The notes beneath the pieces are model-generated. The model was not told where the DNA came from, did not search any database, and saw only the letters and a list, made by a program, of their open reading frames with translations. Positions 34,493 to 38,642 of a DNA stretch of 64,000 nt are shown here, piece by piece. The position numbers and the translations under genes are program-made. Every line of letters begins with the position of its first letter. Position 1 is the stretch's first letter. Origin of the DNA: Lepraria neglecta (lineage: Eukaryota > Ascomycota > Lecanoromycetes > Lecanorales > Stereocaulaceae); contig CM065650.1 of NCBI GenBank assembly GCA_033220425.1, positions 2,914,001-2,978,000 on the forward strand. Reading direction: 5' to 3'.

Positions 34493-35946
34493 CTATTGCC
34501 CATCCGCAATCGAATAAGTGTCTCCGCCATATGTCTCATTCAGGCTAACAGCCGTAACAACAGTCCCAGCCTGCATCCGTACCCACTAGCAAGAGTCAGC
34601 ATTTCCTCATCGAGACACACGCAGTTGAGACTTGTCTCCAGGAATAGCACCAACAGGGAAAATATGAAAGCAGAGAAGGCCTTACAGTGTCAACAATCAT
34701 ACCCCCGCTCTGATCAAACGACATTCGAATCTGCCGGACACCCCTATTCCAAACCCCATAGCCACCATAGCCCGAGTGCTTGCAAAAGCACAGAAACGGT
34801 CTATTTTGGCTACTTCCTCCCCCAACTCCGTAACCAGGCAATGTGCTGTTAGGCCAGCGTCCACACCAGCTGTCTCCGTGATCGTGTCCGGAGTAGATGG
34901 AATGCAGACCGGGCGTGTCGAGGAGCGCTTGCATGAAGGGTATGGCTTCGGAACCTGTGTTGGAGTAGCCTTGTTGGGCGAGGGGGACGTCTGCGTTGAG
35001 GCCGGGGTAGTTGGGACCGGATACGGTGGGGAAGGTCTGGGCTTGGAGATCGACGAATGCGAGGGTGGGTATGTGGACGAAGGCAAGGGAGGGGAGAGTG
35101 CCGTATTTGCTCTGGTGTGGGAGCAGTGAGCGAGCGATGTGATTGCGGAGGAAATCTACGAAATTGGAGAGATGTGTTCGGGGAAGGGAAGGAGATTGAG
35201 GCTGAGGGATTAAAACGTACCTGCATGTCAGCTTGGGCGGAACGATACCAGGAGACGGTGCCATTGGAGACGTAGTTATCAATGTTGTCAACATTTGCCG
35301 GAAGGCTCTGATACTCCGACCCACCGCGAGAGTCAAAGAACCACAATAAAGCAACAGGCTTCTGATTACTTGCTGTCGTGTCCGGAGGGAACACTGGAAG
35401 CACGTAGTTCGTGACACCATCCGTGCCAGCTGGACCGTGCTGTGTGTAGGCATTCGCATACTTCTTCTCCTCTGCATAAAGAGCCTCGCGACTCAGATTG
35501 TATTTGGAGTCATGATTCCCATACGTGCTGGCCCAACTGTATCCACCTTGGACAAGCGGCGCAACTATCTGATCCACGTATCCTGTCGAATTAAACGCGA
35601 AAGTGTTCTCTCCAGTGATGAGATCGCCGTTCAAAATGACGAAATCAGGCTGTTCCTGTGAGAGGACTTGACGCATCAGCGCGGCGGAATTCTTGTCTGC
35701 TGGGATGCCAAAAGTGCTTTCATTTTCACCGTAATGGAGATCTGAGAAGACTGCGATGTGGAACATGCCGTCTTCCGCAAGGGACAAGTCCGCCTTGCAG
35801 AGGAGTACAGAGGAGAACACGAACAGGAAGGCGAGGGTTGCTAACATAGCTACGAGGGAAAATAGCAAGCAAAACAATGATGAGGAAAGCCATCGTCGGC
35901 GTTGCTCTCTTTTCATCCACAAGTAAGTGACTGGTGGTGTGTTCAT
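34493..35946 (-). CDS. Membrane-anchored calcineurin-like metallophosphoesterase (DCR2/SIA1-like)
   Basis: Three exons (35946-35221, 35111-34686, 34585-34493) give 414 residues. A hydrophobic segment near residues 20-50 (SSLFCLLFSLVAMLATLAFL) acts as a signal anchor, putting the catalytic domain outside the cytosol or in the secretory lumen. The metal-binding motifs of the family are all present: FSDLHYGE, LNGDLITGEN, STYGNHDSKY, FVHIP and YSGHDHGDSWC. Potential N-glycosylation sites (NSTG, NLSR, NGTV, NSTL) fit a lumenal or secreted domain. Yeast relatives include Dcr2 and Sia1; the exact substrate here is unknown. The splice sites are standard, and the third exon (WVRMQAGTVVTAVS to TYSIADGQ) completes the last strand of the fold. 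Intact. Confidence 0.9.
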
Positions 35947-36788
35947 GTGTCGGCCTCCTGCTTGTTTTGATGCCGATGATCTTGACCTGCATAAAAATTA
36001 GACTAATGCATTGTCCCGAACCTACACACCCTACATTGTGGCCACTGATTCGCGACCCGTTTCAGTGGGTCTAGCATGTGGGTGATTGCAGGGCATTGGA
36101 TGGACCGCCTGTTCTCCTGAGAAAATGGAAAAATTCAGGTGGCTAGATGAAGATACAAGAGGTTTTGATGCGAAGTGGGGCAGAGTAAAGGTATATGACT
36201 CTAGCCCGGATCTGGATCTCTGACTTCTTGCATCATGCTTGCGTTAATTTCATCACTTGCTTGAAACAAATGACAGCAGAAGGCGACCACACGTTCATGT
36301 GGTGTTGCTTAGGCTGCCTCGGTGGTATGACCTTTTAGCGATGCACAACGATGGTGCGAAGCAGTGAAGGAAATTCTTTACGAAGAATGAAAGAAGTACA
36401 ATACGTTAGGTAAGAATTCGCCTGGTATGCCAATGTTCTAGGCGTGGCCTCTCGCTAAAGGTAGTACTAAGGTATGTAGGAACTCTGGGTTACCTCTAAA
36501 TGTCACTACGGCTTAGTAAGCTTTCCGAGGTAGTTATGGTATTTACTTGCAGAGCCCTTTACTCTTGCTCATTGCATGCTATCTATGAGGGTTCTGAAAA
36601 TGCTGTAATTCATTCATCTTTCACTACACCGTGTGCACCACAATAAATATCTGTAACCCTCATGACCTATGATACATCTATTAGGCCTAGGTACATGAAG
36701 TCTCCGCTGAAGACTCACGGCAACAATTTGCTGCCCCTTAGCCGTTGCATTGATGCTTCGTCACGACGTACCCTACACTGGGGAACAC
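35947..36788. other. Intergenic between two minus-strand genes
   Basis: About 840 bases holding the promoter of the phosphoesterase gene and the 3' region of the zinc-transporter gene. No gene recognised. Confidence 0.4.
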
Positions 36789-38642
36789 TCATGACCAGGA
36801 GATCCTATTGCATAACGATTAGCATCATTTATCGAGTGAAAGAGTATTTCTGGGCTGGAGACTTACGCCAGCATGATGCCTGCTCCAAAAGCCATAGCGA
36901 TAAACTGTATCAAAGTATTCCTCAACTCCTGCCTCTTATTCGGGCCTGTCTGCAGCAGCTCCGGAATCACTGCCACAGTACCAACATACAGGAAAGTCCC
37001 AGCCGTGAAAGGCAGTAGCATATCACCCCACCCCAATCCGGTGCCTGCTAGGCCCTTGCTGGGCCCTTCGCCAAGCCCACTACTTGATCCCGACTTTCCA
37101 AATTCTTGAACAGCAATGCCTATGCAAGTGCCCAAGAAAGCTCCTACAGCGGTCACGAACTGTGCTCCCATAGCTCTTCGCTTGGAGAATCCGGATTGGA
37201 TTAGTAGAGCGAAGTCCCCGACTTCGTGAGGAATCTCGTGAAAGAAAACAGCCATTGCTGTGGTCGCGCCGAGAGTAGGTGAGGCGTAGAATGAAGATGA
37301 CATCGCTAGGCCATCAGTAATATTGTGGGTGAAGTCTGCTATCAAATTGAGATAGGCGGAAAGACGGATGGATGTTGAGGGCTCGTCTTTAGCAGCTTGT
37401 GGAGCAGCAGTCTTAGATGAGGGTATGCTGAGAGCCTTCTCATCCTTTTCTTGAGCCGGGCGCCGAGGCCTGACGCCTTTAATAATGAATTTAGCTTTAG
37501 GTCCCTCAACGACTTGTGCACTTGCTCCTTCAAAAACTTTGCTCGCGCTTTGAATGAAATCCTTGGCTTCCAGGAGCGGGTACTGAGAACCGTGAAATGC
37601 AGTTTCATAGGCCTTCCAGAGCGCAATCTGCATTACTCCGCAGTCAGGATCTGCTTCGAGGTTTTCTTCGAGCCACCGGTGAGCGCGACCGGGCTCCTTC
37701 TGTGTCCAGGATTTTTGGAGGATAGCAGGTTTCAAATTTAACAGGCTAGCATCACTGAATATGGTTCCAGAGCCGCTCCCTGGCTTGCGAGCCTTTAAAC
37801 TTCCATTCTGGGCCGTATTTGCGCCGCTCGCGCTTGCACTCGAGGGTGTAGTGTCCCTCTCTGCCTTTCCTTCGTCCTTGTGACTATGGCTATGGTCGTG
37901 TCCGCCTTCTCCCCCAGTCGCTATCCGCAGTCCTTTGTCCATGGCGACAAAAGTCACGAATCCGACCATGATAGCAACGCCCAAAAGGAGGTTCTTGTTG
38001 GGCTCGACGAGGACGAAACGTGCATGATCTGGTTCTGCTTCGCCGAGGAAGATCTCGGGTAGGAGATGGAAGAGTACGTCTCCGAGTAGACCGCCAACGG
38101 CGAAAGCGACCATGACAGAGAGGGATGAAGGATCGATATTTGGAGGACATAGCGCCAGTAGGAAGTCTAGCAAAGGTCTTAGCTTGTAGATCCATTGACT
38201 TTCGAAGGACAGCACTGACTGGGTGGGCCGGAGATATAGAGGGTCGCGAGAAGTGCATTGACCGCGGGACCTGGTAGACCTGCAAATGGAGTACCCGGGA
38301 ATAACTTCTCGAATACCTGAGAGGTGTAGGTAGAGACTTGGGGGCTCGTTGCGCGTTTATGGAGGTTGAGCTCTTGCACAATTGGGCATTGCTTGTTGCA
38401 GTCAGCCTCTATACCGATTTCGATACGTCGGCAACAAATTTTGGGGTAGTGAATGGATGGTGTATACTAACCTGGAGCGCGTCATCAATCTCTGGTACAC
38501 TCAATTGCCCAATCTTTTTTGAAAGCAAAGGCTCTGCAAAGGAGGTACAGGCAATAACAGCTACTATAGCAGTGAAAAGCCATGGCCGCCAATGTAGGAT
38601 AGAAGCTTTCGCCATTCTGGGGAGCTGGTAAAGCGCAATCAT
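36789..38642 (-). CDS. ZIP7/Yke4-type zinc transporter with an RFX-like insert
   Basis: Four exons (38642-38472, 38391-38220, 38166-36867, 36804-36789), all GT-AG and in phase, give 552 residues. The second ATG (38615) is also a possible start, before the signal-like hydrophobic segment. Family marks: GPPNFLLALCPPNIDP, a His-rich loop (HDHSHSHKDEG, about 203-213), HNITDGLA (395-402) in helix 4 and HEIPHEVGDF (424-433) in helix 5, which form the metal site. ZIP7-type proteins move zinc from the ER or Golgi to the cytosol. Unusually, the loop between the His-rich part and helix 4 carries about 85 extra residues (roughly 265-348: HRWLEENLEAD, MQIALWKAYETAF, AKDFIQSASKVFEG, KFIIKGVRPR) that resemble the RFX-type module of Rsc9. 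The last exon is only 16 bases (ISWS and stop), supported by a GCTAATC branch site and CAATAG acceptor. Confidence 0.9.

Follow-up and report, generated by a model that had tools for sequence, protein, structure and literature searches.

In a window of 64,000 nucleotides of Lepraria neglecta DNA (the whole stretch analysed; contig CM065650.1, positions 2,914,001 to 2,978,000), we found a gene for a Yke4/ZIP7-type zinc transporter whose loop between transmembrane helices 3 and 4 (TM3-TM4 loop) almost certainly carries a homologue of the RFX-type winged-helix domain of the chromatin-remodeling subunit Rsc9. The transporter family is a known one, but the domain is unexpected in it and specific to a clade. 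As judged from sequence comparison, the combination is kept across many lichen fungi of the Lecanoromycetidae with the transport core intact.

The body of the protein is encoded on the minus strand by an open frame of 497 codons (36863-38356) that matched Pfam Zip at 7e-57 (193.5 bits against a cut-off of 35.1). By comparison with two predicted relatives, P0015 from Letharia lupina and P0092, the gene would have four exons on this strand (38615-38472, 38391-38220, 38166-36867, and 36804-36789). The introns would measure 80, 53, and 62 nt, and the predicted protein 543 residues. In this model, exon 1 supplies the start codon and a signal-peptide-like N terminus, and exon 2, flanked by the 80- and 53-nt introns, encodes an N-terminal segment ahead of the membrane part, where the reading runs on as in P0015 and P0092. 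Exon 3 holds both the ZIP membrane body and the insert, and exon 4, behind the 62-nt intron (GTAAGT..AATAG), adds the final residues (AISWS, jointly with exon 3) and the stop, with an end that matches P0015. The neighboring gene on the minus strand (34599-35997) consists of two overlapping frames, possibly split by an intron, and its motifs resemble those of a metallophosphoesterase.

The TM3-TM4 loop (residues 188-370, 37373-37921) lies between ZIP motifs and comprises a His-rich stretch, a linker, the insert, and a second linker. The His-rich stretch, read from the translation as HDHSHSH (37880-37900), has four histidines, of which the first three (H72, H74, and H76) were present in at least 90% of 77 aligned sequences. 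The motifs HNITDG (37310-37327) and HEIPHE (37223-37240) were invariant in 77 aligned sequences, including that of the window; we take HNxxD and HExPHE to be the ZIP metal-site motifs. Since these motifs were invariant and no Yke4-type gene other than the insert carrier was found in the genome, the carrier presumably encodes the working transporter. The first-pass annotation, made from the letters of the window, had described an open frame through the loop with ZIP motifs on both sides, and both this and the motifs it quoted were recovered. It also located the insert correctly, but its span of 37466-37723 was somewhat too short; sequence, profile, and predicted fold place the domain at residues 244-340 (37463-37753). 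Third-position GC was similar in the domain (0.47) and the remaining gene (0.52).

The suggestion of homology to the RFX-like region of Rsc9 was confirmed at each of these three levels. The loop sequence (127 residues), compared with solved chains, matched 23cp_R ("putative chromatin structure-remodeling complex protein") at 2.8e-11 and yeast RSC9 (6k15_M) at 1.5e-8, with no further match at E up to 10. A family profile, built from 60 sequences (59 carriers of full length plus the fragment from the window), matched the same two chains in the insert region at 9.8e-21 and 4.1e-18, with weaker matches to RFX5 (0.0048), ARID2 chains (0.22 and 0.75), and a single chain that is unrelated (0.98). The predicted fold was a winged helix of the RFX kind, and the nearest structures to this prediction were nucleosome-bound RFX5 and DNA-bound RFX. 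Matches to Pfam RFX (PF02257) stayed below the cut-off of 27 bits, at 12.7 bits and, for the insert alone, 15.4 bits. The genome's own Rsc9 was likewise sub-threshold (15.1 bits, same cut-off), and of eight further carriers scanned, two gave sub-threshold matches and six gave none at E up to 1.

Comparison with the genome's own Rsc9 pointed the same way. At E up to 1, the insert had a single other match in its genome, to a frame of 671 codons on contig C3, with 46% identity across 90 residues. We assign this frame to Rsc9 because its listed relatives (the best 120 of 1089) include entries under the name "Chromatin structure-remodeling complex protein rsc9," several of which have an ARID domain. 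Used as a query, the insert recovered 120/120 of these listed relatives, and the own Rsc9 domain recovered 145/145 carriers. The closest insert-Rsc9 pairs, involving P0144, P0131, and P0200, shared 55-57% identity over 103-112 residues. A separate RFX gene elsewhere in the genome (G000:C6:880128-880334, L009) matched Pfam RFX at full strength (98.4 bits); its wing, RRLGMRGESKYHY, is absent from the insert and from Rsc9. Sub-threshold matches to the RFX profile were also seen at G000:C6:634161-634307 (L011; E 0.12) and G000:C2:4034823-4034969 (L012; E 0.36), which cover an identical profile span, hold one TAG each, and are perhaps copies of one repeat.

The distribution of the domain was followed among 205 distinct ZIP homologues, namely, the best 120 of 2131 and 85 more from the best 120 of 2282 obtained with a divergent carrier, P0118, as the query. 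The domain was present in 145 and missing in 60, a proportion that is no natural frequency, since both sets were ranked by likeness to a carrier, and further carriers may exist elsewhere. By our delimiters, the loop measured 175-201 residues with the insert versus 56-71 without it. All eight carriers with an organism name fell in the Lecanoromycetidae by taxonomy look-up: Pseudocyphellaria aurata (by genus) in the Peltigerales, and Puttea exsequens, Letharia lupina, Lecanora helva (by genus), Alectoria sarmentosa, Psora testacea, Psora crenata, and Bacidia gigantensis in the Lecanorales. Among the non-carriers, 56 of 60 had an organism name. Nineteen are Teloschistales by genus name, and the one that was looked up also belongs to the Lecanoromycetidae; Icmadophila, Agyrium, and Stictis are Ostropomycetidae and Lasallia is Umbilicariomycetidae (taxonomy look-up), while the other 33 are, by name, presumably Eurotio-, Dothideo-, Leotio-, and Xylonomycetes. 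Insert-free models might in principle reflect mis-splicing, but the 19 Teloschistales gene models agreed on a loop of 59-64 residues. The first-pass annotation had pointed to the Helotiales and other Leotiomycetes as the place to search for the same insert, but the Leotiomycete ZIPs among the 205 (class taken from the name) were without it, and by similarity the nearest named relatives of the window gene are lichen fungi of the Lecanoromycetes, not Helotiales. Two database entries deserve mention: P0160, an insert-free ZIP of Lasallia pustulata, is named "imidazoleglycerol-phosphate dehydratase" and looks misnamed, and P0147 (Psora crenata, 900 aa), in which an insert-bearing ZIP is joined to two further Pfam domains that we take to be of the alcohol-dehydrogenase type, is likely a run-on annotation.

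The insert site was constant, between an LKxRK-like motif and the start of helix 4, and the motif ahead of the site had the exact LKxRK form in 120 of the 146 carriers and in 51 of the 60 non-carriers. Our preferred history for these sequences is one gain and one loss: an early member of the Lecanoromycetidae would have acquired, in a single copying event, a segment of an Rsc9 gene within the loop, and the Teloschistales would later have lost the insert. That the domain was gained a single time is, on the alignments and trees, probable. A relic of exon capture, as had been proposed, is not favored, since the domain is conserved across the clade and its Rsc9 counterpart lies within the 671-codon frame and is not an exon of its own. 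The same domain could instead have been gained twice, separately, because the free domain tree splits the inserts and the transporter tree sets insert-free Teloschistales among the carriers. In the tree of the transporter core (71 rows, loop left out), carrier P0114 fell below the insert-free Teloschistales and the other carriers above; the domain tree, which had 110 rows but few columns and an unsettled bootstrap, gave two sets of inserts in the free search, one of them amid lichen Rsc9s. Each free tree thus requires two changes, and the inserts of P0131, P0144, and P0200 are nearer to Rsc9, at the identities given above, than most others. We nevertheless consider two gains unlikely: a domain tree with all inserts held together stood 15 log units above the free search (p-AU 0.753), and in carriers the insert sits in the same loop with the same flanking motifs. 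A transporter tree constrained to a single carrier clade was not rejected (p-AU 0.374).

Conservation was measured over 46 of the 146 carriers, chosen because they were <91% identical or because they were named. The domain spanned 91-103 residues, with a mean pairwise identity of 51% and 7.6% gaps, and lay below the ZIP membrane parts (82-87% identity). The linker before it had 42% identity and 21% gaps, its likeness being raised by the His and LKxRK motifs, and the linker after it had 19% identity and 32% gaps; the C-terminal part had 31.6% gaps, a figure that includes one 900-residue model. Several domain columns (E19, R22, W26, Q41, W45, Y48, and G110) were near 100% in carriers. Between Letharia and Lecanora, identity of the domain was 52% in the ZIP (L. 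lupina) versus 72% in Rsc9 (L. columbiana), with the ZIP core at 86%; by these identities, the domain evolves faster in the ZIP than in Rsc9. In a subgroup of 10 carriers (P0138, P0139, P0146, P0152, P0155, P0157-P0159, P0163, and P0164), the insert was strongly changed, with LQNINLQT ahead of the wing strand, and its two representatives in the domain tree sat on a long branch (1.77).

The clearest change lay in helix 3, which in a winged helix serves for recognition. Its FI[KR]N motif was found in 122 of 123 Rsc9 domains. Of the groups into which we divided the inserts, the Peltigerales-like one had it in 12 of 15 members (one of the 15 has an organism name), but it was missing from all 10 of the fast subgroup and from all 120 of the window's set, made up of the window and 119 relatives; in 118 of these 120, His or Gln replaced the basic residue. 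The exact form FIKN occurred in 2 of 146 inserts. The wing motif of RFX proteins, RLGxRG, whose role we take to be DNA contact, was missing from all 146 inserts and from all 123 Rsc9 domains. Mean net charge was -0.7 in the inserts (144 of 146 measured), -0.1 in Rsc9 (111 of 121), and +1.6 in the Peltigerales-like inserts (15 of 15). Within the domain, Rsc9 has 45 columns that are fixed to at least 95%. The inserts retained 24 of them to at least 80% (15 non-polar and 9 polar), and the other 21 were changed (11 non-polar and 10 polar), indicating that fold residues were largely kept, whereas polar columns were not clearly singled out for change. A reading in which the fold was kept and the surface rebuilt is thus only partly borne out. 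The Rsc9 surface may have been altered stepwise, slightly at first, with Peltigerales-like inserts keeping a basic third helix, and strongly in the window's group.

The best explanation overall, which we would put at about an even call, is that the insert was kept as a cytosolic docking or regulatory module of the transporter. In this ER-type transporter, a partner protein recognizing the winged helix would hold the loop, and such binding would set the place or the activity of the transporter. For a fold that was kept and a contact face that changed in the window's lineage, we regard a new protein partner as a better match than DNA or zinc, and docking, to which we give slightly less than even odds, is what we infer from a cytosolic folded module. 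According to PMC7949119, the TM3-TM4 loop of ZIPs is cytosolic and has regulatory uses in other ZIPs; ZIP7 has CK2 sites there, and ZIP4 has an endocytosis motif.

The domain might alternatively still bind nucleic acid or chromatin in at least some carriers, tethering the transporter to chromatin or an RSC-like complex at the inner nuclear membrane, which we think rather improbable. Proteins of the ER membrane can get to the inner nuclear membrane when their cytosolic parts are small, the nearest structures to the predicted fold are bound to a nucleosome or DNA, and the Peltigerales-like inserts, mildly basic and with FI[KR]N mostly kept, make contacts with nucleic acid or of the Rsc9 kind less easily dismissed in that group. 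PMC9741621 suggests that unassigned density at extranucleosomal DNA in PBAF may come from the RFX domain of ARID2 and/or its zinc finger. Against such binding stand the missing RLGxRG (which Rsc9 domains also lack), the loss of FI[KR]N and of its basic residue in the window's set, the negative mean charge over all inserts, and the description of yeast Yke4 as an ER zinc transporter in PMC9785309. The narrower proposal that the Rsc9-derived domain docks the transporter to chromatin, or to Rsc9's own partners, at the nuclear envelope is a long shot. If true, zinc would be released beside chromatin, or a remodeler restrained according to the state of the zinc store, and the transporter would have borrowed the docking surface of a chromatin subunit.

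Little probability attaches to a passive spacer or slowly decaying relic that folds and does nothing specific. The faster change than in Rsc9, the strongly altered 10-member subgroup, and the apparent loss of the insert in Teloschistales that retained the transporter would all suit it, but the length is almost constant and several columns are near 100%. A zinc sensor feeding back on transport, raised by the first-pass annotation, is very unlikely: the domain does come after a His-rich stretch, and in other ZIPs this loop has been proposed to sense zinc (PMC7949119), but the domain itself lends no support, as a single Cys/His column exceeded 30% in carriers, at 55%, and this is the helix-3 His of the window's set. 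That the stretch is spliced out as an in-frame intron to leave an ordinary ZIP7 is scarcely credible, given that the domain is conserved at the protein level and retained in predicted Letharia and Lecanora proteins, and that GTNNGY, the form of all three inferred donors of the gene, does not occur in the loop (37372-37925), where the looser GTNNG occurs once, at 37474, with no in-frame pair that would excise the domain.

The first-pass annotation had suggested that a zinc transporter with such a chromatin-type module would be a new domain combination. We found no description of a ZIP with an Rsc9/RFX-type domain among the papers listed by the one open-access library searched, but the UniRef name of P0015 from Letharia lupina begins "RFX-type winged-helix domain-contain...," so automatic annotation had already seen the domain there. 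The combination clearly exemplifies a chromatin-type domain of the nucleus that was relocated to a membrane transporter's loop and has since been retained in a large group of lichen fungi. It also offers a natural experiment, in that related orders have the same transporter, some with the domain and some lacking it. A further suggestion is that the Rsc9 RFX-type domain, placed only by inference ("likely" in the RSC tail) in the RSC structure paper (PMC6959994), may be a portable module beyond the remodeler.

Compared with known systems, the insert differs from the DNA-binding domain of RFX transcription factors (8zjr and 1dp7), with which it shares about 20% identity and whose wing motif RLGxRG, present in this genome's own RFX gene, is missing. 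With Rsc9 and ARID2 (SMARCF2) of RSC and PBAF, whose layout is set out as ARID-ARM-RFX-zinc finger in PMC9170682, the protein has in common the RFX-type region only, up to the shared FIIKGxRPR-like strand, and this region differs from Rsc9 in the altered helix-3 motif of the window's set. A Pfam scan of the 497-residue frame returned Zip and the weak RFX match but no ARID, armadillo repeats, or C2H2 finger. With Yke4 and SLC39A7 (ZIP7), it shares the Pfam Zip domain, HNITDG and HEIPHE, and the His-rich TM3-TM4 loop, and its matches include relatives named YKE4 or zinc transporter 7; it differs from the 60 insert-free ZIPs examined in that their short loop has no such domain. The window protein is a ZIP, not an Rsc9.
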